From: Siphonodentalium dalli
Taxonomy: Eukaryota; Mollusca; Scaphopoda; Gadilida; Siphonodentaliidae
Direction of reading: 5' to 3'
DNA length: 64,000 nucleotides
Assembly (NCBI GenBank): GCA_032622095.1
Contig: CP136063.1
Location: forward strand, 70,843,980-70,907,979
The position numbers and the translations under genes are program-made. The notes under the pieces are model-generated. The model searched no databases. It saw nothing but the letters and a program-made list of their open reading frames with translations, and had not been told where the DNA came from. Of the stretch, positions 1,201 to 61,800 are shown one piece after another (the stretch's first letter is position 1; every line of letters begins with the position of its first letter).

Positions 1201-1235
<35 letters not shown>

Positions 1236-2944: not shown

Positions 2945-2979
<35 letters not shown>

Positions 2980-4688: not shown

Positions 4689-4723
<35 letters not shown>

Positions 4724-10838: not shown

Positions 10839-10865
10839 TATACTTCCATTTAAAATGGAAGTATA
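10839..10865. repeat. Perfect palindrome at the T-to-S junction
   Basis: Thirteen-base arms TATACTTCCATTT and AAATGGAAGTATA around one central base, followed by (ATA)n and then the S monomer. It is the strongest version of the shared hairpin. Confidence 0.9.
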
Positions 10866-12593: not shown

Positions 12594-12628
<35 letters not shown>

Positions 12629-14337
12629 AAAATAATCGAAAAAGGGCCATAACTCTGTCAAAATATATTGGACCAACATCCGGATAGCATTATTTTTAGT
12701 AGACCTTAGATGCCTACATTCGCTAGAGATTTCGCGGTCCTCCTCCCATTAGTTTCTGAGTATTTCCAATTAAACAGAAAACGGCCGCAGTAGAAAAACA
12801 ATATACTTCCTTGGTTACACCATGGAAGTATAATAATAGGGCAAATCATGAGCTCAATAAATCGCAGTTAAGGGACGGAAAATATGAATTAGGATGATTA
12901 TATCTTTCCCTTAACATGTGTGGGTTGATCTCAAGTGTTTGGGAGTGACCCCACCCCTGCCTCGAAATTGGGTGACGGGATTGGGAAATAGTCAAACCCG
13001 GCCCAAAATGCGAATTTTGAGAGCCCGTAACTCCGTTATTTTCCAATGGATTTAAAAATTGTTTTGAGTATTGTGATCAGCTACTTGCATTGATTATTTG
13101 TTATAATTTTTGTCTGATTCAGAGACGAATAACATTTTGTTTATTGGAAAGAATACGGGCCCACATTCAAAGTTTGAGGGCCCAAATCTCCGCCATTTTT
13201 TAACGGATTTACAATCTGTTTTCAGTTTTATGATCAACGTGTATGGTATATGTTATATATCAAGTTTCATATAATTCGGAGACGAAATAAATTTTGGTAC
13301 CCCGGACCACCCCTCCCCTGACCCACAACACTGAACCGACACTGGCAAAATTTGGCTCATCGCGTGCTCTCTTCAGACCGCACGCATTGGCGTATCAGTT
13401 GACATCCAAAGTTTGACATCTTCGGAGGAGATGTGATCACAAGCATATGGGGCCAAATTTGCATTGTTTGAAGGCCCACAACTCTGACATTTTTCAATGG
13501 ATTTTCGAAATTCTTTCAGTTTCTAGATCGGTTGGCGGTATGGATGTTATATTCCAAGTTTCATCCGATTCGGAGAAGAATACAAAATTGGTACCCCGGA
13601 CCACCCCTCCCCTGACCCACAACACTGAACCGACACTGGCAAAATTTGGCCCATCGCGTGCTCTCTTCAGACCGCACGCACTGGGATATCAGACGACATC
13701 CAAAGTTCGACATCTTCGGAGGAGATAGGGTCACAAGCACATGGGACCAAATTGCAAACTTTGAGGGCCCGTAACTCTTGCATTTCTTCTCGGATTACAA
13801 AAATCCTTTCCGGTATGGGTTTGTTTTCGTTCAGGGAATCTACATACTTAAATAGATGAATGTCAATAATAAAAAAAAATTGCGAAAATATTGCCCCCAC
13901 CCCAGTGTAAAAATATATGTCCAACCCTGTCAAATTTTCTTCCTCGGACTAAGCTGACAACGGTCAACACGACTACAAAAACCAAATACAGTTATCTGGA
14001 ATGATACGAGAGGACAACAGAGTACAATAAAATAGAGGTTTGCCAACTATGGGCGGTAACTCTTCAGGGAAAGGGCGGACCCAAGTTTTTATGCCCGTGG
14101 GCAGTAGTGCATATCGAGATGTGCATACGGTCTAATTTTCGATGCTCTGCTTCTTATAATTTCCGAGATAATAAAATGACATTTTTTCAAATAAAGGGAG
14201 ATAACTCCTCGGGGAAAACGCGGACAATATTCGTTATGCGACGATGGCATACAACTCTTTGATCCCAAGATACGTACCAAGTTTTAGTGTGCTACTCCTG
14301 GTACTTTTCGAGTAATAAGGGTTGCAAAAGTGTCCAG

Positions 14338-14372
<35 letters not shown>

Positions 14373-16081
14373 AAAATAATCGAAAAAGGGCCATAACTCT
14401 GTCAAAATATATTGGACCAACATCCGGATAGCATTATTTTTAGTAGACCTTAGATGCCTACATTCGCTAGAGATTTCGCGGTCCTCCTCCCATTAGTTTC
14501 TGAGTATTTCCAATTAAACAGAAAACGGCCGCAGTAGAAAAACAATATACTTCCTTGGTTACACCATGGAAGTATAATAATAGGGCAAATCATGAGCTCA
14601 ATAAATCGCAGTTAAGGGACGGAAAATATGAATTAGGATGATTATATCTTTCCCTTAACATGTGTGGGTTGATCTCAAGTGTTTGGGAGTGACCCCACCC
14701 CTGCCTCGAAATTGGGTGACGGGATTGGGAAATAGTCAAACCCGGCCCAAAATGCGAATTTTGAGAGCCCGTAACTCCGTTATTTTCCAATGGATTTAAA
14801 AATTGTTTTGAGTATTGTGATCAGCTACTTGCATTGATTATTTGTTATAATTTTTGTCTGATTCAGAGACGAATAACATTTTGTTTATTGGAAAGAATAC
14901 GGGCCCACATTCAAAGTTTGAGGGCCCAAATCTCCGCCATTTTTTAACGGATTTACAATCTGTTTTCAGTTTTATGATCAACGTGTATGGTATATGTTAT
15001 ATATCAAGTTTCATATAATTCGGAGACGAAATAAATTTTGGTACCCCGGACCACCCCTCCCCTGACCCACAACACTGAACCGACACTGGCAAAATTTGGC
15101 TCATCGCGTGCTCTCTTCAGACCGCACGCATTGGCGTATCAGTTGACATCCAAAGTTTGACATCTTCGGAGGAGATGTGATCACAAGCATATGGGGCCAA
15201 ATTTGCATTGTTTGAAGGCCCACAACTCTGACATTTTTCAATGGATTTTCGAAATTCTTTCAGTTTCTAGATCGGTTGGCGGTATGGATGTTATATTCCA
15301 AGTTTCATCCGATTCGGAGAAGAATACAAAATTGGTACCCCGGACCACCCCTCCCCTGACCCACAACACTGAACCGACACTGGCAAAATTTGGCCCATCG
15401 CGTGCTCTCTTCAGACCGCACGCACTGGGATATCAGACGACATCCAAAGTTCGACATCTTCGGAGGAGATAGGGTCACAAGCACATGGGACCAAATTGCA
15501 AACTTTGAGGGCCCGTAACTCTTGCATTTCTTCTCGGATTACAAAAATCCTTTCCGGTATGGGTTTGTTTTCGTTCAGGGAATCTACATACTTAAATAGA
15601 TGAATGTCAATAATAAAAAAAAATTGCGAAAATATTGCCCCCACCCCAGTGTAAAAATATATGTCCAACCCTGTCAAATTTTCTTCCTCGGACTAAGCTG
15701 ACAACGGTCAACACGACTACAAAAACCAAATACAGTTATCTGGAATGATACGAGAGGACAACAGAGTACAATAAAATAGAGGTTTGCCAACTATGGGCGG
15801 TAACTCTTCAGGGAAAGGGCGGACCCAAGTTTTTATGCCCGTGGGCAGTAGTGCATATCGAGATGTGCATACGGTCTAATTTTCGATGCTCTGCTTCTTA
15901 TAATTTCCGAGATAATAAAATGACATTTTTTCAAATAAAGGGAGATAACTCCTCGGGGAAAACGCGGACAATATTCGTTATGCGACGATGGCATACAACT
16001 CTTTGATCCCAAGATACGTACCAAGTTTTAGTGTGCTACTCCTGGTACTTTTCGAGTAATAAGGGTTGCAAAAGTGTCCAG

Positions 16082-16119
<38 letters not shown>

Positions 16120-17856
16120 AAAATAATCGAAAAAGGGCCATAACTCTGTCAAAATATATTGGACCAACATCCGGATAGCATTATTTTTAGTAGACCTTAG
16201 ATGCCTACATTCGCTAGAGATTTCGCGGTCCTCCTCCCATTAGTTTCTGAGTATTTCCAATTAAACAGAAAACGGCCGCAGTAGAAAAACAATATACTTC
16301 CTTGGTTACACCATGGAAGTATAATAATAGGGCAAATCATGAGCTCAATAAATCGCAGTTAAGGGACGGAAAATATGAATTAGGATGATTATATCTTTCC
16401 CTTAACATGTGTGGGTTGATCTCAAGTGTTTGGGAGTGACCCCACCCCTGCCTCGAAATTGGGTGACGGGATTGGGAAATAGTCAAACCCGGCCCAAAAT
16501 GCGAATTTTGAGAGCCCGTAACTCCGTTATTTTCCAATGGATTTAAAAATTGTTTTGAGTATTGTGATCAGCTACTTGCATTGATTATTTGTTATAATTT
16601 TTGTCTGATTCAGAGACGAATAACATTTTGTTTATTGGAAAGAATACGGGCCCACATTCAAAGTTTGAGGGCCCAAATCTCCGCCATTTTTTAACGGATT
16701 TACAATCTGTTTTCAGTTTTATGATCAACGTGTATGGTATATGTTATATATCAAGTTTCATATAATTCGGAGACGAAATAAATTTTGGTACCCCGGACCA
16801 CCCCTCCCCTGACCCACAACACTGAACCGACACTGGCAAAATTTGGCTCATCGCGTGCTCTCTTCAGACCGCACGCATTGGCGTATCAGTTGACATCCAA
16901 AGTTTGACATCTTCGGAGGAGATGTGATCACAAGCATATGGGGCCAAATTTGCATTGTTTGAAGGCCCACAACTCTGACATTTTTCAATGGATTTTCGAA
17001 ATTCTTTCAGTTTCTAGATCGGTTGGCGGTATGGATGTTATATTCCAAGTTTCATCCGATTCGGAGAAGAATACAAAATTGGTACCCCGGACCACCCCTC
17101 CCCTGACCCACAACACTGAACCGACACTGGCAAAATTTGGCCCATCGCGTGCTCTCTTCAGACCGCACGCACTGGGATATCAGACGACATCCAAAGTTCG
17201 ACATCTTCGGAGGAGATAGGGTCACAAGCACATGGGACCAAATTGCAAACTTTGAGGGCCCGTAACTCTTGCATTTCTTCTCGGATTACAAAAATCCTTT
17301 CCGGTATGGGTTTGTTTTCGTTCAGGGAATCTACATACTTAAATAGATGAATGTCAATAATAAAAAAAAATTGCGAAAATATTGCCCCCACCCCAGTGTA
17401 AAAATATATGTCCAACCCTGTCAAATTTTCTTCCTCGGACTAAGCTGACAACGGTCAACACGACTACAAAAACCAAATACAGTTATCTGGAATGATACGA
17501 GAGGACAACAGAGTACAATAAAATAGAGGTTTGCCAACTATGGGCGGTAACTCTTCAGGGAAAGGGCGGACCCAAGTTTTTATGCCCGTGGGCAGTAGTG
17601 CATATCGAGATGTGCATACGGTCTAATTTTCGATGCTCTGCTTCTTATAATTTCCGAGATAATAAAATGACATTTTTTCAAATAAAGGGAGATAACTCCT
17701 CGGGGAAAACGCGGACAATATTCGTTATGCGACGATGGCATACAACTCTTTGATCCCAAGATACGTACCAAGTTTTAGTGTGCTACTCCTGGTACTTTTC
17801 GAGTAATAAGGGTTGCAAAAGTGTCCAGTATAATAATAATAATAATAATAATAATA
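10866..17856. repeat. Satellite S, block 2: four head-to-tail 1744-bp monomers
   Basis: Anchors at 11703, 13447, 15191 and 16938 are spaced 1744, 1744 and 1747 bp. The 3-bp difference comes from one extra ATA triplet in the run at about 16083-16117. Otherwise the copies look identical to block 1, although 4.4 kb of T sequence separates the blocks. The left edge is a T hairpin plus (ATA)n; the right edge is (ATA)n plus ACTAG. Confidence 0.97.
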
Positions 17857-19857
17857 ACTAGAATGAAACTGTAATTGCACAGCAATTTCGACACTTCCAT
17901 GTTCGCCAATGACGGTAAATTGTGTCACCTGATAAAGCGTCAGTTTTCAGGAGACACATGTCAGTATGGTGATACTGTAGCTCATAGCAATACTCGGCAA
18001 CCGCAGATTATATCCACCAAATTTCATCAATATCTGCACCAAAAACATTTTGAGATACATACCAACACGCCTGTGCTTCCAAACCGGAAGAGAAATCAGT
18101 AAAAATTATCATATATAGGTAGTACCCACCCACCGTCCCATCCCGCCACCCATAGTATCTTATGCGTCACAGGCGCTCGTATATAGGTAGTACCCACCCA
18201 CCACCCCACCCATAGTATCTTATGCGCCGCATGCAGGCTCTCGTATATAGGTAGTACCCACCCACCATCACGCCACCTATAGTATCTTATGCGCCGCTGG
18301 TGCTCGTATATATGTAGTACCCACCGCCACCCCATCCCGCCACCCATAGTATCTTATGCGCCACAGGCGCTCGTATATAGGTAGTACCCACCACCACCCC
18401 ATCCCGCCACCCATATTGTCTTATGCGCCGCAGGCGCTCGTATATAGGTAGTACCCACCCACCACCCTATCCCGCCACCCATAGTATCTTATGCGCCGCA
18501 GGCGCTCGTATATAGGTAGTACCCGACCATCATCCAATTCCGCCACCCATAGTATTTTATGCGCCGCAGGCACTCGTATATAGGTAATATATCATTATAG
18601 AGCGCAGACGCTGATGCACATAATGCAAAAAGTCCCAACTCAATATCTCAAACCCTTCTGGATTCCGTATAAAGAGCGTTATTTTATCCTTCGACCAGTA
18701 GCAAACTGTTTAACCGGAAGTGCAACCACTATCATTTTTCAGTATTTTAGAACACACATACAGGCGCAAATAATGAAAAAATCGGAACCCGATATGTCAA
18801 GCCGTTTTGGAGAAGATACGCTAACAACAATAAAACAGATAAAGAGCGTTGTTTCCTAAGGTCATGGTCATAAAACTTTTCATGTTAGCGGCTCGACTGC
18901 ATGTACTCAATGGCTATGCAGGTACGAAAATTCAAATCAATTGGCAATGCCGTTTTGACGATATAAGAAATCAAACCTCCATTTCCAAGTAATTCTGGTG
19001 GTGCGAAAACCCCCCAAAAACCAGGTTTTTATGCAGCCAAATCTCGAGAAGTTAAAGTCAGATTTGAAAAATTCGAGTGGAATATTGATCAGCGGCAAAT
19101 AAAGATTATATAAACCACATTTCACCAGCGAAACTGAAGATTATGTCCACCAAATGTCATCAAAATCTGAGCCAAAATAGTTTTGAGATACATACCCACA
19201 CGCCCATTCTCCCAAACCGGAAGTCAAATCCATAAACTTTATATACCATTACATAGCGCAGAGGTTCATGCACATAATCCAAGAAGTCCCAACTCGATAG
19301 CTCAAGCCGTTCTAGATTCCCTATAAGAGCGTTGTTTTACCCTTCGACACCTAGCGAACTTTTAAACCGGAAGTGAGAACCCTATCATTTTTCGGTGGTT
19401 CATAACACACAAAAATGCGCAAATAATGAAAAAAGTCCGAACCCGATATCTCAAGTCGTTTAGGAGATCTCTTCACAACAATAAAACCGATAAAGAGCGT
19501 TGTTTCCAAAGGTCAAGGTCACACAAAATTCCCTATTTGTACATAGACTTCGGGTACTCAATGGCTGTGCAGTTACCAAATTTCAAATCAATCGGTCATC
19601 CGTTTCGACGATATAAGAGATCAAACCTCGATTTTGCAAGTCATTTTAGTGACTCAAAAAACCCCCAAAAATCAACAAAATGGCGATAACTCCGAAGGTC
19701 AAGGTCGGACGAAATTCTCAATAGGCTATTTTCAGAGAACTTCCAAAGTTATATCCGAAACCGAAAACAGCAAGTCAATCGGTCCAGCCGTTCCTGAGAT
19801 ATAAGCATGTTATTGAAAAAATAATAATAAAAAACGGAAGAATTAGAAATATAATAC
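17857..19857 (+). repeat. Repeat family T, module III
   Basis: Begins ACTAGAATGAAACTG after S block 2, exactly as module I does after S block 1. It contains the enlarged 65-bp minisatellite, then ~650-bp subunit material with CTCAAGCCGTT and AAGGTCAAGGTCGGACG, and ends in an A-rich tract without a clear hairpin. Confidence 0.82.
18108..18590. repeat. Minisatellite, ~63-69-bp unit, about 7 copies
   Basis: ATATAGGTAGTA-type starts lie near 18114, 18181, 18244, 18307, 18374, 18441, 18509 and 18577. Most units contain GCGCCGCAGGCGC, a small hairpin with GCGCC/GGCGC arms, and a CCACCC-rich half. It is the expanded form of the array at 6660-6905. Confidence 0.9.
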
Positions 19858-26511: not shown

Positions 26512-29401
26512 GGTACCGCTATACTTAAAGTAATTGACCACCTGTAACGCGGTGCCACCCCGTTAATACCGCGGTATCCCCCAATACCGCTGTACTGATA
26601 CCGCTTATTAACGCTTCAACACCGCGCATACCGCGGTGACACCACGATGCATGCGGTCATGGTTCGCGATTCTGCAGTGATTTTAACAGACAATTTGTGC
26701 GGAAAAAAAACGAAGGACACTGAATAAATCTTCATTTATTGTGGTTATTTGATTTACTTATTATTGAGGATGATGTATTTTTGCCAATAGTGATTTGTCC
26801 ATGTGTATAATATGTTTTTGCCAATAGTGATTTCTTTATGTGTCTGAGTCATCAAAAACTATCTCTTGAGTGGAATTTGTTTTTCTCGTCTCCGTATAAC
26901 AAATAGATATTGATAGATGGTAACGTCTTCCTTAGAAAATCCGATATATCCGACCTAATTTAGTTTTAACACTGGACCTTGTCGTTGAACTCTATAGGAT
27001 TTATTTTTATTGTATATTTGAAACCTCGTGCATGTATACATGTTGACCCATCAACGTATACATGCATATAGACAAAGGTCGATGATAAACCTACATGAGA
27101 ATGCATATCAGTTTTAGTTGCGATGCAGGGTACAGGTAGGTAATAATTATCTGAATGACCCAAATAATAGTGCGGGTGGGGAAACAACAATTCTTACCAT
27201 TATTCCCAACTTTTATAATGTCCAATGCAATTGGATTTATTTTGTGTGGTTTTTGTGTAGTCTACTTTTACAGACAAGCGGGGGGGGGGGGGGGGGTCGA
27301 ATATGGTTATTTATAAGTGAGGTAATCCTGATGATTATGACGACACATGCGCGTCCTCGTATAAAGACATGCGGGGTGGGAACAGTCTGTATGCATCTGC
27401 TACATGTACCGGTATTGTTTATTGCCGTAAAGTGAACATGGGAATTTGTCAAATGTGGACGCTTACAATTTGACATTTATAAGAAGCAAACAAAAACATA
27501 ACCACGTGGTTGAACACAATTTGACAATATGACCCACGATGACGTCATCAAGGGAACTTCCCCATCAAACGACTGACGTATTTAACTGTCGAATTATTCA
27601 ACATTTTGTTTAAACCTTTGGGTCAAGGGCTGAGTGGCGCAAATCGACAATGGGATCAAGTGATAACACTAATCGACTGAGAGGAACTAGTAATCATGAC
27701 GTGTATTGTCACTCAGGACAAATCATGAAGCTTGTGGATATATTAAATTGGATTAGTCATAACCCGGATGCTGGAATCACTGATTTTTTTGCCACTTTTT
27801 AGTCTGGAGAATAACCAGGGATTTACAGATTAGGATATAATCTATGGATAAACTCCCCGGGATAATCTATAAAAATCAGTGATTATTGTATGCATTAATT
27901 AATGTAATTATTATCTTATACACTCTACCAATTTTGTAAAAAAAAACAAGTTTTATGCAGGAAGCATCATGCAGGGTCGGTGAATTATTTTTTCATACAA
28001 ATAAAACAAAAATCGATAAGTTTCATTTAAATCTTACGAACATATTTAATTGTGCTATTTTTCTGAAAGGTGTTGCTTATTATATCCAAAGTTGAATTAA
28101 TCAGAATTCTATTGTCAACCATGCAGCAGATGGTGAATGCACTTAGGTTCAGAAATAACGTGACCTGTCATGAATCACCGCAGTAATTAAAAGCAAAATT
28201 TCGAACAAAATTGTCATGCACGATCACAACAAACACTAAATGATAAATACGTCACAAAAATGTCACGTGGGCTTGTTCTGAATGCGACAGGTCGTCATGG
28301 TAATCTTCAGCCCTGAGTGCAACACTAAGTATCACGCGGTGAACTTTACGCTACTTTGAAGTTACCGACATCGGCTGTCAAATTATAAACTCCACCCAAC
28401 GCCTGGTGTCCGGGCACTGAGGTGTCTTCCAATAAAGGCCATAAAATGAGGGATGAAGGAGAGGGCCTCTTGGCCCTTTCGACCATCCCGGAGTTAGCCC
28501 CTCCCCCCCAAATCACATACCTTAGTCTTCCAACACATACCTGCCCTTGAAATAATTTCACCACGCACCAAGTATGAATGTGTTATGACGGAATGTTTTT
28601 TTTATTTTTATTCGATAAGTAAGATGGACATTCTAAGGCAGCGATTGGCATTGGCACGAAGTCGTGGAAATCACACATCTGTGGAATTTAATGAGATCCT
28701 TAATTAAGGCTTGGAGACATATTGTTTTAACTTTCTGTGTGACAACCCAGCCAGCAGGAGTCGTCATTTAATTAATAGATATTATGGCAATGCCGTGAAT
28801 CATGCATCAAAAACACGAACATTGCACTCGCATTTATAAACAAATCATATTTCTCTTGCTATTCCACATAGTTCAAATCATTTTGAATTTATTCCGTATC
28901 CCCCGCTCCGATTTTCAGAAATAAACCGCGAATAAAGCATGTGATTGACTACCCTGCGATCATTTCCAGCTACGATTTTTACGTACACATGACTGCGATT
29001 ACGTCGCAATTAAGTGGAGGTTATCAAGGATACGCCACGATTTGGCATCTAAAATCAAACAGTGCTTGATATTATTTTTTTACTTACGACATTGTCGTCA
29101 GCTTGCGCAATCCAACTACCAGTTACTTCCTCGACGGAAATCTTTCCACTTACGATTGAATCGTTGTTGTCTGAACGTTCACTAAATACATCCCTTCAAA
29201 GAGTTCCGTGAAAATCACCACGGTATTCAAAAAATTTATCGCGGTGCCCGCTATAAGACCGCAGTATCCTTACCGCCCGATACCGTAACTCCACCACCGT
29301 GACTGTCTCGATACCGCTACCGCTTATTACCGGTATCACCGCGGTCATGACCGGGATATCACCCCGTTTTTCTGGTCAATTACTTTGAGAATAGCGGTAG
29401 C
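26512..29401. mobile_element. 2.9-kb inverted-repeat element with subterminal ACCGCGGT arrays (element G1)
   Basis: A 29-bp terminal inverted repeat (26512-26540 against 29373-29401, about 26 of 29 matching, core AAAGTAATTGACCA) bounds the element. Just inside each end lies a dense array of GCGGT and ACCGC words, including the palindrome ACCGCGGT (about 26545-26660 and 29215-29370). The interior is AT-rich with a run of 17 G at 27280-27296 and no recognisable protein, so it is probably non-autonomous. The superfamily is unclear. A second element with the same subterminal word but different ends is at 48361-50975. Confidence 0.75.
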
Positions 29402-29995: not shown

Positions 29996-30207
29996 AAACA
30001 AATTGTACACACCAATGCCAAGCGGTACCCTAAACTATGATGCCACACGGCCCATTTTATACATATATGGGCATAGAAACAGGAACTTTAGGAAGGGGTC
30101 TGATTAATCAACTAGTGTTTGATTAGCTCTTGTCAACTAATGGACTCCTGAATATCCCAAACAATTTCAACACTAGATACAAGGGGTACGCATCCAAGAT
30201 GCTATGT

Positions 30208-30246
30208 CAAGTTTATTGGCAGTCGAAAAAGACTGCCAATAACTTG
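30208..30246. repeat. Long hairpin with 16-17-bp arms
   Basis: CAAGTTTATTGGCAGTC and GACTGCCAATAACTTG pair completely apart from one bulged T, around a loop GAAAAA. It lies just before the first core copy of the element at 30130-30790. Confidence 0.9.
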
Positions 30247-30720
30247 GCAATAAGGCCCACACAAGGCTCAAAATGTCGGACAAACCTGGTTTTCAAACTC
30301 GTCCGGATGAGTTATTGTTGCAAGAGACTCATACATGTATATCAAATATGGTTTGAATCAGTTAATATTTAATTGAGTTATCGCACTAACAGTGAAAAAC
30401 ATGCTAAAAATAGACAAAATAAGGTCCATAAATCCAGGGACAAAATTTGGACAAACCTGGTTTTCGAACTCGTCTGAGATATTGTTGCAAGAGACTCATA
30501 TATCAAATATAGTTATAATCAGTTAATATTTGATTGAGTTATCGAGCTAACAGGTGATTTAATTGCAAAAAAGTCATCAAAGATGGAGAACTGTTGTCAA
30601 AAAGTTTGGACGTGATCCATTTTCTACAGGCAGTAAATAGTTATTGGGAGCAACTCATATCCCAGAATGATTTTGAATCCATTCACAAATGTCAAAGTTA
30701 TAAGGCATTCTTTAGGTCCG

Positions 30721-30757
30721 CCCACCACCGCCCGCCCGCCCGCCCCGCCCACCCGCC
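30721..30757 (-). repeat. G-rich tract (minus strand)
   Basis: CCCGCC-type repeats on the plus strand give at least six runs of three or more G on the minus strand, a strong G-quadruplex motif by pattern. It lies between the Helentron stop codon and the core repeats. Confidence 0.75.
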
Positions 30758-30765
30758 GACCATAA

Positions 30766-30788
30766 GTCGAGTTTTTCAAAAACTCGAC
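30766..30788. repeat. Perfect terminal palindrome
   Basis: Arms GTCGAGTTTTT and AAAAACTCGAC around a single C, followed by TAAAAATAGC. Position and context match the terminal hairpins of Helitron-group elements. Confidence 0.9.
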
Positions 30789-30917
30789 TAAAAATAGCAA
30801 AAAAAGTATAGGGATCTTAATGTTGTTTTATACAGTTTTATATTGAATAAATTTGAAAATAATATAATATGTAATTGAAATATATACCTATAATTTTAAG
30901 GAATAATTAAATGAACT

Positions 30918-33900
30918 TCAACTTACAGTGGTGTTTACATCAATGGCAATTCCCTCGTGATAACTATAATATTCAGAGAGTCTGCTGCAAGATACAGAGA
31001 GTTCTCCTTTAAAGTAGACATGATCCAACAGAGTGCCGCCTTCTGTTGTAGGGAACTTGATAATTTGTTGAAAACCTTTGCTTTCAATGAGTGTACTTAG
31101 AGAAGAATTTTGTAAGTCATTCTGATTAAAGTCGCCTATCAGGAGCACATTTGTGTAATGTTCAGCTACTGCACAAATCTCATGTATTTTTGGCGTGAAC
31201 ACTTTTACCGCATATTGTGGAGGCCTGTATATTACAACCAAGAGTAAATCTAAATTGTAATTGTATGTGCAAATGTGTTCGAGATTGATGAGACCAATCT
31301 GAGTTCTGCGGAAGTCTGATTCATTGCTCACATAAACCCCAACACCACCATGTTCTTGTTTTTTCATTTTCTTAAAAAAATTTGTGGACTCGTCAAAACA
31401 TTCAGACCTGGCAGTGTGATGAAACTCATAATCATCTATATCATATCTCAAACTTCCTATATCGCTGGGGGCAAGCCACGTTTCAACGAGAGCTATACAG
31501 TCAGCAGTAAAAATTCTTTGATCTGCTTTAAGATCTTCAAAATGACATGATAAACCTTCAATATTGTGCAAAATGATTTTTAAACATTGGCCAGATGAGG
31601 TTTTCTCAGCTTCAATGAAATCTGGCATTCTATTGAGTGCTTTTGAGACTTTTTCATCACAATAGATCTTATCAGTGATTTCATGAGATTCACAATTTAT
31701 TATTGAAAGTCCTTCAAGTGATGTCACTCGACTCAATGCAACATAGGCCATACCAGGGGAGAATATATTTTTCAGTGAGATAACAGCCTTTTCCAGTGTA
31801 ATTCCTTGAGCCTTATGAATTGTACATGCATATGACAACGTCAATGGGAACTGTTTCCTCACAGTTACTTGGCTACTTCCAATGTGATGTTCATCTGGTA
31901 CAATTTCAATCGTTCGCATTTCGCCTTCTAGCCCAGAAAGTCTTTTCCTTCCAACTCTTTCATTGTCAAACCTGATATACACTCTTTTCATATCTATATC
32001 AACATTTTCAAAGTTTTTCAAATCTATCACAGTTCCAATAACGCCATTCACCAAACCATCATCAATATCTAGATTCTTCACCAACATGACTCTGCAGCCT
32101 TCAGCTAGGACAATGGAATGAGGCAAGTAGGTTTTCAACTGCTTTGAGGTACAGGGTCTGTTTAGTCTAACAGTAACTCCAGTTGCCTTATTTGTTTTGT
32201 AATCCTGAGCATCAATGGTGAAAAGATTACTGCAAACTTTCTGCAACATTTTTGTGTTGTGATCGCCGACCTCGGCTTTTGTGCTGGCTAATAGTAATGC
32301 TTCTCCAACTTCTCTATTTATACAACCAGACAACATATCAACATCCTGTGGCAACAGACGTTCAGCTCGATATTTGGTTCTACACCTGTTTAGCATGTAT
32401 GCAAAATCAGCATCATCTTTCTGTCTCATGATTTTGTCAAGAATGGCAATGGAGAAGCGTTTGTCCCAGAGTTTACGTCCAGGCACCCTTGAAAATAGTT
32501 TGTCTTCCTCTGAGACACAAACAGGTGGAATCTGATAGAAGTCACCTACTGCTATAACAGAAACTCCTCCAAAGCAGATTTTGTCATTTCCACAAGTTCT
32601 CTTTATCTGGTTCAATCTCTCGCTCACATAGTGCAGTAGATTATATTTGATCATAGAAATTTCATCTATTATCAATAGGAGAAGAGAGCTTAATTTACAC
32701 CTCATGGTATTCATAGTGTTTTCTTTTAGAGGCACACATCTTTCACCGAGAAATAATGGAATCGAGAATGCTGTATGTAGAGTTGTACCTCTAATGTTGA
32801 AGCTTGCACTACCAGTGGATGCTGTCAACAAAACAACAGTGTCATCTGGGTTGTTGGATATTTGGGATAGCAGCCGGTTCATTTCATAATACAGACATTT
32901 TATCAGAAGAGATTTTCCAGTGCCTGCTCCACCAGTTAAATGTAGAAAGAATTGTTCTGGATTTTTTCCGTGAATTTTATCAAGGCACCAGTTGCGTACT
33001 TTATGAAATATTTTGCTTTGTTGCTCATTCAGAGTTCTCATCAGTGGCAGAATTTCACTTTTATCATAGACATCATAATGTCTTTCATTCCTAGATTCAG
33101 ATGGAATATTGCCAAACTCATTTTTGCAATCAATATTTTCATCCTGTCCAACTGTTGATACTGGCATATTTGAATCATCCAATCTGTCTACTTCTGACTC
33201 AGGACACATATTAGCCCATGCATCTTCAGGATTGACTTTGTGGATAGAATCCTGGGCATTATCAATTGCACTAGCATTTGCCTCATAATGCTTTCTGTTG
33301 TCCTCCACTACAGATTTCACAGTGCAAATGTCATTCTCTGATCTAATGTTTCCAGACTCATAAAAGTCCATGTACAATTGAAATGGACTTGGCTTCAGTT
33401 GTTCTTTATTACGATGGGGCAGGTACAGTTGTAGCATGCTTTGGTAGAACTTCTCGCGTTCCTTTTCTAGTACAAATCTAGGATACTTTATGACAGCTGG
33501 ACTTGACTTTGTTCTCTTTTGAACATATCCAAGTTCATTCTGTAGTCGGAACACAGTTGCTGTTATTTTATCCTCAGCACAATTCTCAGCATTCTTGGGA
33601 AGTTGACTTTTACAGAGAACTCTATACTCTGAACAAAATCTAGCCAAACACATTGCCTTGAACTCAATCAGCAGTGGTCTTGCTTCATATCTCTCAGTGA
33701 TGTTAATCATCCAAACTCGTTCAGAGTCTTCGTTTATTTGATCCAGAGGAAGACTTATTCGGACAGGATTCTCCCCAAGAGGTATCCACACAACATTTCT
33801 TGAACATTCTTTAAGGGGCAGTTCACAAACTCTGAAGACACTTTCAATGGCCGACACATTTCGCTTGTTTAGGTATGTTGATCCAAGCTTTCTCATTGTT

Positions 33901-36900
33901 TTCTTAGCGGACAAATTCCCTTTCTCAGCTTCTTTTTTAGTCTGTTTCAAAAATGATCCCATTGTTTTCTCATTCTTTGAGATGTAGCTAATGATATACA
34001 CAACACAACTGTATGCATCCAATACATACTGAATGTCAAGATTGGCATTCCAGCATCTTGAGAGATATGCATTGTATTGATTAGTCCACATGTCTTTAGG
34101 TGATCTTTTGAGAACAACAGTATTGCGTGTAGACAATCGGCTCAAAGCTACTTCCAAGTCAGACTGGTCTACATTAGCCTTATCAAGTAGTTCCTTGCAA
34201 CTTGTTATCTCCTCATTCTTATCTAGCAGCAGTTTCCATAATGACTCAACTAATGTTTTTGCATTTTCCTTCTCGGTTTGATGTTCTTCAGTTTCCATAC
34301 TCTTCGCTCTAGCAATGAATGACTCCTCAGATGGTGGCCTGGGAAAATTAAACCTGCAGGTTGTTCCTCGTTTGCGACAAGATGTTGTGTGGTTCTTGCT
34401 ATGTTGTTGCACACTTTTAACTATGTCAAACAATTCTGGATCAGTTTCCTCATCTGGTGTAAGACAGGTTATGTATTTATCAATGAATGCAACCACAAGA
34501 GCATCATTGTCAACATCAAACTGAGGCGCATTATCGATCCAAATCACACAATGCCAATGCGGTCTAAACTTGTCAGAATTTTCTTCCCTGATGAAGAAAT
34601 CTTTAACTTTACCGATAGGTTCGGACTCTGACATAATCACCTTTTTGAAAAACTTGTGGAATCTATCTGAAAGCATTCTTGCAACAGTCACAGGATTTGA
34701 TTTCAGAATTTTGCACTTTTCATCCCAGTCCAGTTTTTCAAAAGTCCTTGTGTCATTCTGTTGAATCAAAATAGTTTTTATAATCTCAGGCCATCGGAAC
34801 TCAGCTGTAGAGAAACTTGTGAACCACGTTGGTATACCAACCATTCTTAACATAGCAAATAGATCTTTCTGGCAGTTTTCCCAGTATGCCGGACTACTTC
34901 TTATGGTCTTGAGAAATCTGTATGCCTGATCACTATTGAGTAGTTCGTCTCGCTTCTCCTTGTCTCTCAGATCACTACCAGTTATCTCTGATCCGTCACT
35001 TGACTTAGCATTAGATTTTCTACAAGCAATAGAAATCTGGGACAGTACCTGCTGAAGCTCAGATATATACTGACTGAAGAATATGTAATCTGTGTCCCTC
35101 GCAAACCTATTATCCACATGCATCAGTCTGTGCTTAAAATATTGTGCCAATGTTAACCGCACTTTTCGTTCACTCTTAAATGTATGCTGCCCTTCAGGAA
35201 ATTGTTTTGGAAATGCTTTACCTTCTATGTCCTCATCACCGAGCATGTACACTGGTTTGTTTCCTTCTGCTGGTGCAACATCAAATATCTCATCACTGTG
35301 GCTATCAAGTACAAATTGACCGATATCCTCTGGTTGCAGACATGAATCAACAGGAAATGCAGAGTCACGAGCACCATGTTCATTCTCAGAATCACTTGCA
35401 CTGTCTGATTTATCATCAGTAACATCCTGTTCCATGTCAGATTCAGAATCAGTCGAGTCTGAGCTTTGGTCATTGTCCATGTTTGCTTCATTCCATCGTT
35501 CATCAATTGTTATATCCTTGAAAAACTTGTTGTGCCTTTTAAGATAGGACAAAGCAGTGATAACCCTCTTTGTATTCACATATTCATATTCATAATAACC
35601 CTCATAGCACCTTTTCCGTTTCAATTTTACTCGAAGTAACGAACTTGTGTTTTCGGGCCTTGGCAAGACATCTGCAGTTTTACTCATATCAGTAGGGACA
35701 CAAACTACTGAACCTCGAATTCCTTCTTGTGAACCTCTGGGTAATTTAACAATCTTTTTGAAGGGGAGTAGTGGTGCTAGGAGGTGGCATTCTAGTCGGT
35801 TGATATTTGCGATCTCTTCAGGTATTGGATCAAGTTCCATGTTATTAACAAAAGAACCAGAGGGAATCTTTCCTTGCTGAATTTTGCGATGACAAGTATA
35901 GCAGATCCAGAGTTTGCTGCATGGTCTCTCAAGAAACTGACAATTATTAGGGCATTCATCTGAGCATTCATGCAAATACTTCTTTGTGATGCACTTCTTA
36001 GCAATAGCATCAACATTGGAACCTTTTAGACTATAGTTATCTAAATTACATCTCGTCACCTGGTTTTGAAACAAAACACGGTTGCAGCTGGCACATACAT
36101 ACTCAGGTCCATGTGCAGTTTCCTCCCTGAAGGATTTTATTACATTGTCTATTATTGACAGGTGTTTTATCCTCTTTACCATTTGACATTTTTTGGCAAG
36201 TAGTAGGTTTTTTCGATATGCACTAGATATTCTGTACTTCCTTTTGATGCTGTTAATGAGATTATTCCTGAACTGAGAATTGTTTGTATACTTGGCTTTG
36301 GAATAACTCATAAGTTTCTTTCTGTACTCACTCTGTGTGGCATACTTGGCTTTGAAATAACTGATCTTTTTCTTTCTGAACTCACTCTGTGTGGCATACT
36401 TGGCTTTGGAATAACTCCTAAGTTTCTTTCTGAACTCACTCTGTGTGGCATACTTGGCTTTGGAATAACTCTTAAGTTTCTTTCTGAACTCACTCTGTGT
36501 GGCATACTTGGCTTTGGAATAACTCTTAAGTTTCATTCTTAACTCACTCTGTGTGGCATACTTGGCTTTGGAATAACTGATCTTTTTCTTTCTTAACTCA
36601 CTGTTGGTGGCATACTTGGTAGCAGAACGTGTCTTCACATCAGATCTAAATTGTTCCTGATTTTTGTACTTATCTTTTGAATCCATGCATGCCCTGAGTC
36701 TGAATTCCTTGTTACTTTGATATTTATGTACAGACTTGGCTTTCTTTTCCAGTTTCAATGCTTTGTTAGTAGCATAGTTCTGTTGTCCCCTTTCATTCTT
36801 AGCTGTTTTGTGAGAAGCCTGGTATAAAGACACATATTCATTGCGACTTCCTGTTTTATTTTGATTTTTCACATTTTGCCTCTTATAGGAAACAGACCAT

Positions 36901-39050
36901 CTGCTTTTGTTTTTTCTCTTTTGTTTGATTAGTTCGGGCTTATCGGTCTGATTAGTGAGTCCTATTTCACAACACTTGTCAACTTGTAATTTCTGATATG
37001 ATGAATGGTCCATTATTTTGGGTTTACAGGTCTGATCATCGTAGCTGGTCAGATATTTACTTTTGCTCACAGGGTCTTGTCTGACAGCCAATACAACATT
37101 GTAATGATTACCATTTAAATTCTGTAAAAATATCATTTCAGGATAAGATATTCTTGAACTGTTAAAGCTCTTTGGGGGATATTTCAGCCATGAAGTTGTG
37201 TGTATCATGATATAAGTATTGAGAAGATCTGCCATAGCAAGTACTTCCATTTCAGTTGCCCAGGTACCTTCATCCTTCATCTTGGTATCATGTAGATATT
37301 GTGTGATGCTTGAAAAAGTAGGTCTCAACCACTTTTGAAATTTCAAACTTCTATCCTGCATGTGCTTGATGACTTTACCTCTAAGGTCAAGGTGAAAGTT
37401 CTCAGAACCTGTTAAAGCATAAGATATGGCTCTAAAGAAGCAATTGCCATCTCCATAAATCTGTCTTGTCAAGAAGTGATCACTAATCAATTGACAATCT
37501 CCATATTTTATTTCATCATTCATAGTGAGTCCTATTTCATGACACTTCACAGCACGAGATTTGTCACGCAATGGGTCAAATATGACAGCACTAGCATCAG
37601 TTTGTCCTGTTATCACTAGATTATTCTCATGGTCAATAGAAGTTTTAACATTGAGACCAGTGAGGTCAATCTGCTGTCTCCCAACCTGATTCATTGACAG
37701 AAGTAGTTCACCAAAATGCTCAGCAACTTCATTCAGGTTATTGAACTTCAATAAAACACTGGTTCCATCTCCATCTACTAGGCCTTGATCGTTACGTGCA
37801 TGAGAATCAATCATGAAGTACTTGTTTCCTCTACCAGTTTTGCCAATTATTACTGTGAATATTAGGAATGTTGCAAAACAATAATCAGAGACTTCAAAAA
37901 TTGACTGTAATGCATCTATCATTGGGATAATACCCCAACTAATCTCATCTTCATTTGATGAAAATACAGAAGCTTGAACAGGGATTTTGATATCAAACAA
38001 GAATTCTGTATCAAACACTGTGTATATTTTTGGAAGTTCTTGAACGTCAAGAAATTTTAAATTTATTAGTGTGATCTTCTCCTGATGTGGTAACTTTTTT
38101 CGTTCATTAATGACAAACGAATACATCCTTGAACCATGATTTATCACTTTGTCCACGTCAGACGTATTCCACAAAAAAATATTTTTAATGTGAGAGTAAG
38201 CAGCAGCTAGTAAACAGACAGCGGCACATTGGTTACCAGCAATTAACCCGAATAATGCTGTATTACCCTGGCTATAATTACCTTGGATTGAAGACATGTC
38301 CATTGCACATGCATCATCTTGATTCAGTGGTTGACTGTAGGTGCATGTTTTGGTACTGACGATTGTGGCATTATTGATTTCATATTTATCGCAGTCCTGT
38401 TTTTTTGGTGCAATGTTACTCAAAACAACGCTGCATGACTTGAGAAGGCCATGAGGTATATTTCCAACATCAAAAGAAGCAGATTCAAACTTCGCACCTG
38501 AACTCTCACTTAGATTTGTATAGCCACTTGTCCTATTGGCATTTGTATGATTTGCACTGTTTGTAAGATTAAGTTGGGTTTGTGTGTTAACACTGTTTGG
38601 GTTTGTATGGTTGATAAGACTTGTTTGGATGAATCGTCCATTGCGGGTTTGCATGTTTTCATTCTGAAGTTTGCTTTGCCTGGTTTGTGGTTTGTTTGTA
38701 GTTTGTTTGTAGTTTGGCAGATTAGCAGTTTGGCAGATTGGCAAATTAGCAGTTTGGCAGATTGGCAGATTAGCAGTTTGGCAGATTGGCAGATTGGCAG
38801 TTTGGCAGATTGGCAGATTGGCAGGTTTGTAAGCAGGTTTGTAAGCAGGTTTGTTCGTAGGTTTGTTCATAGGTTTGTTCGTAGGTTTGTTCATAGGTTT
38901 GTTCGTAGGTTTGTTCATAGGTTTGTTTGTAAGCAAGTTCGTAGTTTGCTTTTTACCTTTTGTTTGCTTCTGTTCCTCACGTTTCTTCGCCATTTGTCGT
39001 CTGTGCCTCTCTCTTCTCTGAATGTCGCCTAGCACTCTTTTCTTCGGCAT
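30918..39050 (-). CDS. Helentron (Helitron2-type) transposon protein: proteases, Rep, PIF1 helicase and EEP nuclease
   Basis: Residues are counted from an upstream in-frame Met at 39095. I choose Met16 (39050, MPKKRVLGD) because a pyrimidine tract plus CAG, an ideal splice acceptor, lies immediately before it; length is then 2710 residues. Order: NKPT/NKPM and ANLPICQT repeats (about 50-137); a UL36/C76-like cysteine protease (QC290 and D430-S-H432); an OTU protease (GD549GNC552, H664); 18-residue KYATQSEFRKK repeats (about 790-960); cysteine pairs and a DUF6570-like block (about 1000-1165); a Helitron-like N and HUH Rep domain (PH1513WH1515, Y1700-xxx-Y1704-xx-K1707); a PIF1 helicase (GGAGTGK2061S, IID2144E, GDFYQIPP, HKAQG, YVALSRV); and a C-terminal EEP nuclease (N2511, E2538, GD2655FN, D2691H, H2713). 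The Rep domain would nick and join single strands, and the helicase would unwind them during rolling-circle transposition. All core motifs are present and the frame is open throughout, so the element may be recent or active. The usual Asp before the last EEP His is Tyr here. Confidence 0.9.
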   Translation of the reverse strand: MPKKRVLGDIQRRERHRRQMAKKREEQKQTKGKKQTTNLLTNKPMNKPTNKPMNKPTNKPMNKPTNKPAYKPAYKPANLPICQTANLPICQTANLPICQTANLPICQTANLPNYKQTTNKPQTRQSKLQNENMQTRNGRFIQTSLINHTNPNSVNTQTQLNLTNSANHTNANRTSGYTNLSESSGAKFESASFDVGNIPHGLLKSCSVVLSNIAPKKQDCDKYEINNATIVSTKTCTYSQPLNQDDACAMDMSSIQGNYSQGNTALFGLIAGNQCAAVCLLAAAYSHIKNIFLWNTSDVDKVINHGSRMYSFVINERKKLPHQEKITLINLKFLDVQELPKIYTVFDTEFLFDIKIPVQASVFSSNEDEISWGIIPMIDALQSIFEVSDYCFATFLIFTVIIGKTGRGNKYFMIDSHARNDQGLVDGDGTSVLLKFNNLNEVAEHFGELLLSMNQVGRQQIDLTGLNVKTSIDHENNLVITGQTDASAVIFDPLRDKSRAVKCHEIGLTMNDEIKYGDCQLISDHFLTRQIYGDGNCFFRAISYALTGSENFHLDLRGKVIKHMQDRSLKFQKWLRPTFSSITQYLHDTKMKDEGTWATEMEVLAMADLLNTYIMIHTTSWLKYPPKSFNSSRISYPEMIFLQNLNGNHYNVVLAVRQDPVSKSKYLTSYDDQTCKPKIMDHSSYQKLQVDKCCEIGLTNQTDKPELIKQKRKNKSRWSVSYKRQNVKNQNKTGSRNEYVSLYQASHKTAKNERGQQNYATNKALKLEKKAKSVHKYQSNKEFRLRACMDSKDKYKNQEQFRSDVKTRSATKYATNSELRKKKISYSKAKYATQSELRMKLKSYSKAKYATQSEFRKKLKSYSKAKYATQSEFRKKLRSYSKAKYATQSEFRKKKISYFKAKYATQSEYRKKLMSYSKAKYTNNSQFRNNLINSIKRKYRISSAYRKNLLLAKKCQMVKRIKHLSIIDNVIKSFREETAHGPEYVCASCNRVLFQNQVTRCNLDNYSLKGSNVDAIAKKCITKKYLHECSDECPNNCQFLERPCSKLWICYTCHRKIQQGKIPSGSFVNNMELDPIPEEIANINRLECHLLAPLLPFKKIVKLPRGSQEGIRGSVVCVPTDMSKTADVLPRPENTSSLLRVKLKRKRCYEGYYEYEYVNTKRVITALSYLKRHNKFFKDITIDERWNEANMDNDQSSDSTDSESDMEQDVTDDKSDSASDSENEHGARDSAFPVDSCLQPEDIGQFVLDSHSDEIFDVAPAEGNKPVYMLGDEDIEGKAFPKQFPEGQHTFKSERKVRLTLAQYFKHRLMHVDNRFARDTDYIFFSQYISELQQVLSQISIACRKSNAKSSDGSEITGSDLRDKEKRDELLNSDQAYRFLKTIRSSPAYWENCQKDLFAMLRMVGIPTWFTSFSTAEFRWPEIIKTILIQQNDTRTFEKLDWDEKCKILKSNPVTVARMLSDRFHKFFKKVIMSESEPIGKVKDFFIREENSDKFRPHWHCVIWIDNAPQFDVDNDALVVAFIDKYITCLTPDEETDPELFDIVKSVQQHSKNHTTSCRKRGTTCRFNFPRPPSEESFIARAKSMETEEHQTEKENAKTLVESLWKLLLDKNEEITSCKELLDKANVDQSDLEVALSRLSTRNTVVLKRSPKDMWTNQYNAYLSRCWNANLDIQYVLDAYSCVVYIISYISKNEKTMGSFLKQTKKEAEKGNLSAKKTMRKLGSTYLNKRNVSAIESVFRVCELPLKECSRNVVWIPLGENPVRISLPLDQINEDSERVWMINITERYEARPLLIEFKAMCLARFCSEYRVLCKSQLPKNAENCAEDKITATVFRLQNELGYVQKRTKSSPAVIKYPRFVLEKEREKFYQSMLQLYLPHRNKEQLKPSPFQLYMDFYESGNIRSENDICTVKSVVEDNRKHYEANASAIDNAQDSIHKVNPEDAWANMCPESEVDRLDDSNMPVSTVGQDENIDCKNEFGNIPSESRNERHYDVYDKSEILPLMRTLNEQQSKIFHKVRNWCLDKIHGKNPEQFFLHLTGGAGTGKSLLIKCLYYEMNRLLSQISNNPDDTVVLLTASTGSASFNIRGTTLHTAFSIPLFLGERCVPLKENTMNTMRCKLSSLLLLIIDEISMIKYNLLHYVSERLNQIKRTCGNDKICFGGVSVIAVGDFYQIPPVCVSEEDKLFSRVPGRKLWDKRFSIAILDKIMRQKDDADFAYMLNRCRTKYRAERLLPQDVDMLSGCINREVGEALLLASTKAEVGDHNTKMLQKVCSNLFTIDAQDYKTNKATGVTVRLNRPCTSKQLKTYLPHSIVLAEGCRVMLVKNLDIDDGLVNGVIGTVIDLKNFENVDIDMKRVYIRFDNERVGRKRLSGLEGEMRTIEIVPDEHHIGSSQVTVRKQFPLTLSYACTIHKAQGITLEKAVISLKNIFSPGMAYVALSRVTSLEGLSIINCESHEITDKIYCDEKVSKALNRMPDFIEAEKTSSGQCLKIILHNIEGLSCHFEDLKADQRIFTADCIALVETWLAPSDIGSLRYDIDDYEFHHTARSECFDESTNFFKKMKKQEHGGVGVYVSNESDFRRTQIGLINLEHICTYNYNLDLLLVVIYRPPQYAVKVFTPKIHEICAVAEHYTNVLLIGDFNQNDLQNSSLSTLIESKGFQQIIKFPTTEGGTLLDHVYFKGELSVSCSRLSEYYSYHEGIAIDVNTTVS
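30921..30926 (-). promoter_or_regulatory. Possible splice donor at the 3' end of the Helentron ORF
   Basis: The last two codons before the TGA stop read GTA AGT, giving CACT|GTAAGT, a consensus 5' splice site. The current C-terminal VS-stop could therefore be intron read-through, with another exon downstream. This is inference from sequence only; the EEP fold looks almost complete without it. Confidence 0.35.
36240..36620 (-). repeat. 54-bp coding tandem repeat within the Helentron gene
   Basis: The phrase CTCTGTGTGGCATACTTGG recurs every 54 bp (for example 36331 and 36385), giving seven or eight copies of an 18-residue motif K-Y-x-x-x-S-x-x-R-K-K. Neighbouring copies are almost identical in DNA, which suggests recent expansion without loss of frame. 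The strong positive charge suggests a nucleic-acid-binding or linker role. Confidence 0.9.
38690..38950 (-). repeat. Coding minisatellites near the Helentron N-terminus
   Basis: Two adjacent arrays: a 24-bp type unit encoding ANLPICQT (about 38700-38820), and a 12-24-bp unit encoding NKPT/NKPM/AYKP (about 38820-38930). Both stay in frame. The encoded segment is Pro/Asn/Lys-rich and probably disordered. Confidence 0.88.
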
Positions 39051-45757: not shown

Positions 45758-46242
45758 TGTTATTCATTGCTCTCCCTGTACGTCACTCGCTTGAAATTTA
45801 CAAAATCAAAGACTAATAGTAATAGTTTGAACATGAACACATGTGCCTATGAACTCTATTTGATGAATTTCACATTATTTGAACTTGTGTTCGGTTATGT
45901 TCAGTTGTGATGGGTAAATTGTAGGACTGGGCAGTCCTCATGACAAAGCGGGCCGCATTTTAGATTTCCCTGACATGATGTATCGCTCCTGTATTTTTTC
46001 ATAGTGGAAACCGGCGCTTTAGTGTGAATTTCTGGCCAGAATGTATTCTCACCGGAAACTCCGGCAATGGTTTTCCTGTCAACGTTCCTATCATGGACAT
46101 TTAAAATATCTTTTGGTTATGAGAATGAGTACAGGGATGGCAAAACAATGAAAGCTTATTGTAAAGCATGCGCCAAGCATTCTGACAGCATTCGGGGAAA
46201 AATTTACCGGTAAAGCCTTAAAGCAGTTTAAGAAAATGGCTT
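45758..46242. other. Remainder of the interrupted duplication, and unassigned sequence
   Basis: Continues from the MITE right flank. I recognise no gene. Confidence 0.35.
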
Positions 46243-47513
46243 TATAAGGTTCCCTGTCAAAACTTCAAAAAGTTCCCAGGTTTTGTATTGGTGGAATATT
46301 ATCTATACGACGTTAGCCATAGTAGAGATTCATGGCATGATCTACATTAGGACCCTAATTGACTTTGCATTCATTGTAATAAGACCCCAGGGAATAATAA
46401 TTTAAGTCAACACAAACAAAGTAGAAACAATAACATGAACATTGTAAGTTAAAATTTTAATATATAATAAGGTAACAATACTGATGGGGTAATTGTCACA
46501 AGGCTCCGATCACATTCGAAGCCAGCTTTTTAAATCGATCACAAATGTAGCCAGCTTTTCGATCCCATTCATAGCCAGCTTTTCTAATTCCATGCTTTAT
46601 ATGGCGCGAAATATGTCATCGCGTTCGTGATTAAAATTTCAACATCATGCTCCAAAACTTCCGTTTATCGACTTATATTGGAATATAATTCGAGCAACTA
46701 ACGACATTGATCCGAAATCTCAGGTTATTAGATGAACTAATATAAAATTTACGCTGTTTTTTCATTCATCAACTCAGAAAAATGTGACTAACCTAATCTT
46801 GTTCATTGAGGCTCGCATGAATATTAAAAGCTGGCTACAAATGTGATCGCCGTTGAGAAGCTGGCAACATTTGTGATCGATTTAAAAAAGCTGGCTACGA
46901 ATATGACAGGAGCCTTGTGACAATCCCTACCTTTTAATAGATATCACAACCCTATAATAAGTTTATCTAACATTTCGATGTATTCTTTTAGAACTGTTGG
47001 TCCATGATTATTAATAGCTTTGGCGAATATTGCAACTAATTCCGTCAAAGCCATAACGAGAGGTTTTAAAAGTAGCTGTCTTTATTAATACTATTAACTC
47101 AGTGCTTCCTTATGGATGTCTATACATCCAACATGACATGTATCCAAGAACGCTCTATATATAACTATAATAGTGAAATTCAGGATGTGCCTGACCTGTT
47201 CAAATGTTACCTCCATAATATCTCAACTATAAGTTACAGTCGCGCAATATTGATGCTGATACTAATAACAAACGGAAACCAATTGTACACTATGTGAATT
47301 GTGTACTACTACTAATTTGACTTTATTTTTATTTAGCAAATCAACGGCTGATCAATATGGACCCAAAACTCATTCAACGCTGCCACTGATCAATATTTTG
47401 GTAGAAGTAGTCATTTTGATAGATCATGCCACGAATCTCTAGAATCAGTAGAGTTCATATTCCACCAGTACAAAACCCAGGGACTTTTTTAAAGTTTTGA
47501 CAGGGAACCTTAT
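46243..47513. repeat. Inverted-repeat pair, arms ~100 bp
   Basis: 46243-46352 (CTTTATAAGGTTCCCTGTCA .. GGCATGATCTA) is the reverse complement of about 47420-47513. A third arm in the same orientation as the first lies at about 51340-51430 plus 52640-52656. It is either a shorter element sharing its right end with the 47420-52656 composite or a tandem neighbour of the same family. Confidence 0.8.
46492..46924. mobile_element. MITE, ~433 bp, terminal repeat ATTGTCACAAGGCTCC
   Basis: The two ends are inverted copies over about 75-100 bp, each containing several AGCCAGCTTTT words and ATCGATCACAAATGT. The flanks GGGGTA and CCCTAC give no clear target duplication. It is nested between the arms at 46243 and 47513. 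Confidence 0.8.
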
Positions 47514-47723
47514 AAAGTCGAAAAAATAACGCGAGGAATGTATTTGTTAATACCTGTTGCTTAATGATTTATTCATCGGTACGTGAAGTTCCCAGCTCGA
47601 GATTACATTATTTACGTGACGTTTGAGACCCGATTCCGCGATAAATATTTATTTTATTCCCCGTCACGAAATTCATTGTCTTATCAAATACGGAAGCAAT
47701 TCTGATTGGTCGATGGCCAAAAG

Positions 47724-59483: not shown

Positions 59484-59513
59484 TATACTTCCATGTTAAC
59501 ACATGGAAGTATA
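59484..59513. repeat. Hairpin at the T-to-S junction
   Basis: Thirteen-base arms TATACTTCCATGT and ACATGGAAGTATA around TAAC, followed by ATAATG and the S monomer. Confidence 0.92.
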
Positions 59514-61245: not shown

Positions 61246-61800
61246 ACTAGAGGTCAGATTCCATGGAATCAGATATACTTCCATGGTATACCATCCCATC
61301 CCATGTGAGTGCTATGCGTATATGTGTGTTCCTCTTCATGCGACAACGTATTGGTGTCTTATTATCTGATGGTGCACTTGCATTAACATTTCTAAATTTA
61401 ATATATATTTTGGGACTTCTGTCTGTTTGGTTGTCTGTTAGCTATGACTGGGAAAACTGCTGGACGGATTTTGACAAAATTTGATAAATATGGGTACTTT
61501 TGTCCAGGGAGTGTTTTGGACGTGTCAAATCGTGACCCCGACCTGATCTTGACCTTCAAAAAGGTCAATCCTATGTAAAATCGGGTAAAACAGACCGATT
61601 TCAACGAAATTTGATACCTAGGGGTACTTTTGTCAGGGAAGTCTTGTGGGTGTGTCAAATCGTGACATTGACCTGACATTGACCTTCAAAATGGTTAGTT
61701 CAAGGTCAAATCGGGTAAAACGAACGAATTTCCACGAAATTTGCTACCTAGGGAAACTTTTGTCCGGGGAGTGTTTTGGACAGGTAAAATCGTGACAATA
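61246..61800 (+). repeat. Module U: ~130-bp tandem repeat
   Basis: Starts ACTAGAGG after the (ATA)n of S, then ATTCCATGGAAT and ATACTTCCATGG. Three units with GAAATTTG.TACCTAGGG.ACTTTTGTC lie near 61471, 61606 and 61735, each followed by TCAAATCGTGAC and GACCTTCAAAA. Open frames here are repeat by-products. Confidence 0.8.

Follow-up and report, generated by a model that had tools for sequence, protein, structure and literature searches.

A multi-copy Helentron of Siphonodentalium dalli predicted to encode tandem VTD and OTU proteases ahead of its Rep, helicase and endonuclease

A single open reading frame in a 64,000-nt stretch of the genome of Siphonodentalium dalli (hereafter the window) probably belongs to an intact, multi-copy, rolling-circle Helentron in which two unrelated protease domains, VTD and OTU in tandem, precede the Rep, helicase and EEP nuclease, in which the two proteases would remove ubiquitin in cis, and whose copies would exchange their protease halves. 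The many copies in the same genome provide evidence that both deubiquitinase-type domains are selected rather than carried as passengers, so that their role in transposition becomes a testable question. A head/tail mosaic found among the copies suggests separate histories for the host-facing and the DNA-moving parts of one transposon protein.

Open frame and protein domains

The frame (30918..39050, minus strand, stop codon included) is read out as 2710 codons from an ATG at 39050 to a stop at 30918, and the original prediction of a protein of about 2710 residues, open over more than 8 kb, is thus borne out; an alternative TTG start at 39095 would give 2725 aa in the same frame with the same stop. 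The window has two further complete frames of 150 aa or more, each encoding 161 aa. The order of domains is PT-type repeats, VTD, OTU, a basic 18-residue repeat, DUF6570, HUH Rep, PIF1 helicase and EEP nuclease, all on the minus strand. When the whole protein was scanned, PIF1 (8.5e-29), Helitron_like_N (2.7e-23), DUF6570 (4.6e-20) and OTU (8.1e-9) all exceeded their Pfam cut-offs. DUF6570 occupies residues 1059-1185 in Cys-rich surroundings (35496..35876), while the HUH Rep (33951..35141) contains H1498-W-H1500 and the two-tyrosine motif Y1685-IIS-Y1689, and the PIF1 helicase core (residues 2007-2213; 32412..33032) has a Walker A motif at 2041. The C-terminal EEP (AP-type) endonuclease (30921..31613), with N2496, E2523, D2640, N2642, D2676 and H2677, matches Exo_endo_phos at E 0.0051 with the whole protein and at 4.2e-5 with the last 231 aa, the latter match being slightly under the Pfam cut-off (23.8 against 24.5 bits). 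The active-site motifs N/E/GDFN/DH, which we take to be the set expected of EEP nucleases, are present and are kept in all of the 15 copies, out of 17, that extend that far. The protein therefore has the Helentron combination of an HUH Rep fused to a PIF1 helicase, recognized by Pfam matches above cut-off and by the HWH and Y-x3-Y motifs, and a C-terminal AP-type endonuclease, recognized by its active-site motifs and the match just described; the HUH Rep, PIF1 and EEP motifs noticed originally are all confirmed.

The VTD, a putative UL36/M48-like cysteine protease (residues ~245-470; 37641..38318), carries C275, D415 and H417, the Cys plus Asp-x-His arrangement of M48 (PMC9741609). With the whole protein, no Pfam match to a UL36-like domain was found up to E 1. 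Scanned alone, the VTD region of the window copy matches Herpes_teg_N at 8e-4, below the cut-off, and 13 of 14 aligned members match it at E <=1, with a best value of 1.6e-6. These members constitute profile A1, which consists of the window sequence and 13 sequences of the same genome sharing 37-94% identity with it (11 of 12 module loci plus the window, L019 and L023, with L036 omitted for a frame break). A single-sequence search of the PDB found 8ADD, the structure of a zebrafish Helitron VTD, at E 0.029, and profile A1 found it at 4e-8 over profile positions 35-234. In the single-sequence search, two chains of botulinum neurotoxin E, an unrelated protein, ranked above 8ADD (E 0.0043-0.0044 over a 75-residue stretch); we take them for a chance match, as the profile search, with 38 matches, no longer lists them. 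The relationship to known VTDs is thus found by profile search, with the single sequence falling below the Pfam cut-off. E338, part of an ELP motif that corresponds in the alignment to DELP in the zebrafish structure, is invariant in the 17 copies and the 14 aligned sequences. Single-sequence structure models had mean pLDDT values of 31.8 (residues 220-700) and 32.7 (residues 245-470), too low to inform on the fold.

The OTU cysteine protease (residues ~515-665; 37056..37508) is assigned more directly, since its region alone scores 43 bits against a Pfam cut-off of 23.3, profile A1 matches OTUD5 at 6.7e-12, and Pfam OTU is matched by 14/14 A1 members (E <=1). Its D-x-x-C ... H triad consists of D534, C537 and H649. 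All six catalytic residues of the two proteases are unchanged in 17/17 copies and in 14/14 aligned sequences of this one genome, down to 37% identity. The original prediction had named a UL36-like domain with Cys, Asp and His and an OTU domain with Asp, Cys and His; the profile matches and conserved residues argue for both. Its residue identities were right and its numbering was 15 too high (C290/D430/H432 and D549/C552/H664), as it took the length from the ATG and the residues from the TTG. Of the domains it listed, PIF1, Helitron_like_N and OTU are recovered by profile searches above the Pfam cut-off, the VTD through the 14-sequence profile and EEP slightly under the cut-off. Outside the source genome, no relatives were found in the viral contigs scanned, and a scan of prokaryote genomes found eight loci with a match confined essentially to the OTU part.

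Between the OTU and DUF6570 lies a basic coding minisatellite (36288..36619) with a 54-nt unit encoding 18 residues of KAKYATQSEFRKKL type, recognized by its repeat pattern. Matches to the pattern K[AY]KY within it number from 1 to 12 per copy among the 17 copies. The basic repeats that it encodes might bind DNA.

Copies, domain pairing and selection

The survey covered one genome of 2.23 Gb in 9 contigs, from which all relatives are drawn. At least 17 copies match most of the protein (17 of 2078 candidates scored); they are found on contigs C1-C7 and C9, with the main subfamily on C1-C6. The more distant families, which are about 40% identical, likewise have a VTD adjoining an OTU. An OTU lies within 1.5 kb of the VTD in at least 41 of 49 merged VTD places, and adjacent to it in 29/29 VTD places in frames of at least 700 aa and in 23/23 in frames of at least 2000 aa. 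These 23 pairs comprise 14 from the main subfamily, 2 from its sister and 7 from distant families, and are not independent because most come from shared subfamilies. Among the matches listed, a VTD without an OTU occurs in 8/49 merged places, all in frames of less than 300 aa, and an OTU without a VTD in 16/57, where 150 of 361 candidates were scored and the OTU counts are lower bounds. Three of the latter, at C7:100203992, C7:100244709 and C3:265651097, have about 32% identity and frames of 1423-2063 aa, and are possibly OTU-only elements. The VTD and OTU trees are concordant on the main groups, with L026 placed differently (support 0.81 and 0.88). A second copy at C3:70928820-70936949, 53.9 kb away, has an identical protein and DNA 99.97% identical over 10 kb, and is probably a recent local duplication.

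Selection was estimated from 11 of the 17 fetched copies, namely main-subfamily members whose frame is open from VTD to EEP. The set omits L010 (protein identical to that of L009), L021 (judged from near-equal scores to be a near-duplicate of L020) and L022 and L025 (interrupted frames); L023 and L024 belong to the other subfamily and served as outgroup, and L019, which has two in-frame stops upstream of the VTD, is included. Purifying selection acts on both proteases: omega is 0.28 for the VTD (bootstrap 0.16-0.49) and 0.27 for the OTU (0.16-0.48), with 0/1000 bootstraps reaching 1 for either domain, against 0.88 (0.62-1.30) for the adjacent 18-residue repeats, and therefore the VTD and OTU are both kept. 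For EEP alone, an omega of 1.14 comes from less than one change per pair and is uninformative. An explanation in which one of the proteases is carried as a passenger, or binds ubiquitin but does not cleave it, has precedents in insect VTDs judged inactive, and the OTUs of transposons are stated to be untested (PMC9741609). It is nevertheless unlikely here, as the invariant catalytic residues, the low omega of both domains and the pair being kept in all 23 VTD-bearing frames of at least 2000 aa all speak against it.

Head and tail of the element

Comparison of the copies divides the element into an old and apparently recombining head (residues 1 to at most 1300; 35151..39050, minus strand), comprising the VTD, OTU, repeats and a zinc-finger-like region, and a young, near-identical tail (30021..35150, minus strand), comprising Rep, helicase, EEP and ~0.9 kb of 3' non-coding DNA. 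At synonymous sites the 11 copies differ by 5.4% in the VTD, by 7.0% in the OTU and by 4.9% within the zinc-finger-like region, in contrast to 1.3% in the 100 residues after that region, 0.5% in Rep, 0.4% in the helicase and 0.1% in EEP, and the pS ratio of VTD+OTU to Rep..EEP is 14.3 (9.0-24.6). Informative sites fall within residues 110-1300 in 120 of 121 cases, 54 of them in the repeats, and in 66 of 67 cases without the repeats; these site counts omit residues 1-109, 2471-2479 and gapped columns. In residues 1301-2710, 38 of the 39 biallelic sites are singletons, a star-like pattern. By the four-gamete test, 286 of the 630 pairs of sites within VTD+OTU are incompatible. Incompatible pairs account for 20/89 of those less than 100 nt apart and 170/325 of those more than 400 nt apart, and a value as low was obtained in 0/2000 permutations. 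The same distance test gave 34/2000 within the OTU and 138/2000, which is not significant, within the VTD. The position at which head changes over to tail varies by copy, from residues ~910 to 1300. Recombination among the copies, by transposition with template exchange or by gene conversion, is strongly indicated by these patterns, and the copies appear to combine old, reshuffled protease heads with a single Rep-helicase-EEP tail that spread recently. From the near-identity of the copies we infer that the family was recently active.

The flanks were also compared. Mean divergence of the 3' non-coding DNA is 1.1% (blocks of 0.3-1.4%, including the last well-populated ones), with 11% in one thinly covered end block. 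On the 5' side, divergence is 3.6-7% in the nearest blocks; it reaches 30-36% farther out, in a part whose alignment is untrustworthy. The copy on C1 is 98.6-99.2% identical to the window along the 3' side compared, down to window position 14864, and 90-97% identical on the 5' side. Similarity ends near window 45.6-46.9 kb on the 5' side, differing by copy, and runs past the region compared on the 3' side.

Homogenization of the tail in place by gene conversion, instead of transposition joining a new tail to old heads, is a reading to which we give appreciable but lesser credence. The copy on C5 (L011) has a tract similar to the window that is bounded on both sides: beyond the stop, the stretch at ~2.4-3.9 kb is 98.3% identical to the window and that at ~5.0-6.4 kb is 94-96% identical, as measured on the window minus its 2.9-kb insert. 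The excess of singletons in the tail argues against conversion in place and fits a recent burst with a single ancestor, although repeated conversion could yield the same pattern. With respect to the mosaic itself, we tentatively suggest, as a doubtful extension, that the head with its two proteases serves as an exchangeable cassette, with a diverse, selected pool of VTD-OTU heads reassorting by recombination among copies and repeatedly joining whichever tail is spreading. If so, the element would resemble pathogens that shuffle their host-facing parts, because the head meets host ubiquitin control.

That the head simply mutates faster, through hypermutation or repeat-driven error, is very improbable: the minisatellites of the head and a raised dS between subfamilies in the repeats (0.59) and residues 110-230 (0.98), compared with 0.19-0.41 elsewhere, are in its favor, but synonymous divergence between subfamilies (L009 against L023) is equal in VTD+OTU (0.279) and Rep..EEP (0.282) in spite of the 14-fold contrast within the subfamily, and many head sites are common to several copies and incompatible with one tree. 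The VTD and OTU are therefore without faster mutation, and this between-subfamily control disfavors hypermutation as the source of their divergence. The repeats and residues 110-230 do appear to change faster, and poor alignment may be part of the cause.

Several other repeats lie around the frame. Nested inverted repeats at window 46240-47517, around what is presumed to be the element's 5' end, may be a fold-back element or may mark the Helentron terminus. Helentrons are characterized by subterminal inverted repeats, a 3' stem-loop and T-T insertion without duplication of the target. The C1 copy lacks a 2.9-kb stretch at window 26514-29399 that is bounded by 27-nt inverted repeats (93%) and resembles a TIR transposon that entered the 3' part of the Helentron. 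A tandem repeat of ~1744 bp, with units up to 100% identical, occupies window 1-6890, 10863-17868 and 59511-61251; it occurs on the 3' side of the Helentron frame and, in one place, on its 5' side, and is also present in the C1 copy, inside a 7.8-kb match at 98.6% identity. In oyster, non-autonomous Helentrons that bear satellites have been described (PMC7492417).

Proposed function and known systems

Zebrafish Helitron VTDs are reported to react with ubiquitin probes and to cut K48 and K63 chains, with the VTD of DrT2, a zebrafish element that also has an OTU, being markedly less active than the others, and protection of transposition proteins from the proteasome has been proposed for VTDs (PMC9741609). 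By analogy with its family, the VTD of the window would cut K48/K63-type ubiquitin chains, and the OTU, also by family, would contribute a second linkage preference. We propose that the two proteases most likely act in cis, where they would remove ubiquitin either from the transposase itself or from host factors present where transposition takes place, and that the transposition complex, once stripped of ubiquitin, would escape the proteasome. Copies would swap the protease half by recombination, giving older, varied heads and one recently spread tail.

The original prediction had also suggested self-processing, by which one or both proteases would cleave the 2710-aa protein into its Rep, helicase and EEP parts. 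This was proposed for the OTU of Helentrons (PMC4067079), and the repeat linker does lie between the proteases and Rep. We regard it as quite improbable and find the suggestion unsupported. The ubiquitin-tail-like patterns tried match only LRG (556, in the OTU) and LTGG (2038, in the helicase), with none in the linkers, and GG occurs only within the helicase and EEP, all of which is weak evidence in that a ubiquitin-like site need not be the preference of the OTU. The linker repeats are near-neutral and variable in number, not as expected for a kept cleavage site, and the known Helitron VTDs cut ubiquitin (PMC9741609).

Deubiquitination in cis is the reading that we prefer. VTD Helentrons have been reported with molluscs among their hosts, together with 121 Helitrons that have both VTD and OTU (Erven et al., 2022; PMC9741609), and for the OTU proteases of Helentrons the proposed roles are chromatin signaling or cleavage of Rep, helicase and endonuclease (Thomas et al., 2014; PMC4067079). 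The earlier view that a role of such domains is not established for Helentrons accordingly holds for transposition, where a role is only proposed, but not for the VTD+OTU pairing and the cleavage of ubiquitin by Helitron VTDs, both described earlier (PMC9741609), nor for the presence of OTU proteases in Helentrons (PMC4067079). The architecture of VTD+OTU Helentrons and the ubiquitin activity of VTDs are thus already published, while a limited, word-based search of the open-license literature found no earlier description of such a mosaic for Helentrons.

The herpesvirus UL36/M48 deubiquitinase is a virion tegument protein and not a Rep-helicase protein. Like the VTD of the window, it has Cys plus Asp-x-His (PMC9741609), and the two show a weak sequence match. 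The Helentrons of Thomas et al. (2014; PMC4067079) share the fusion of Rep, helicase and EEP, and some families have OTU-like cysteine proteases; the available text names no VTD and describes terminal subTIRs and a stem-loop. DrT2 and the 121 VTD+OTU Helitrons have, like the window, a VTD and an OTU in one frame, a C-terminal AP-type endonuclease and conserved catalytic residues (PMC9741609). They differ from it in sequence, and the family described here adds purifying selection across copies, a head/tail mosaic and, within its genome, a VTD-OTU pair that is constant in long frames.
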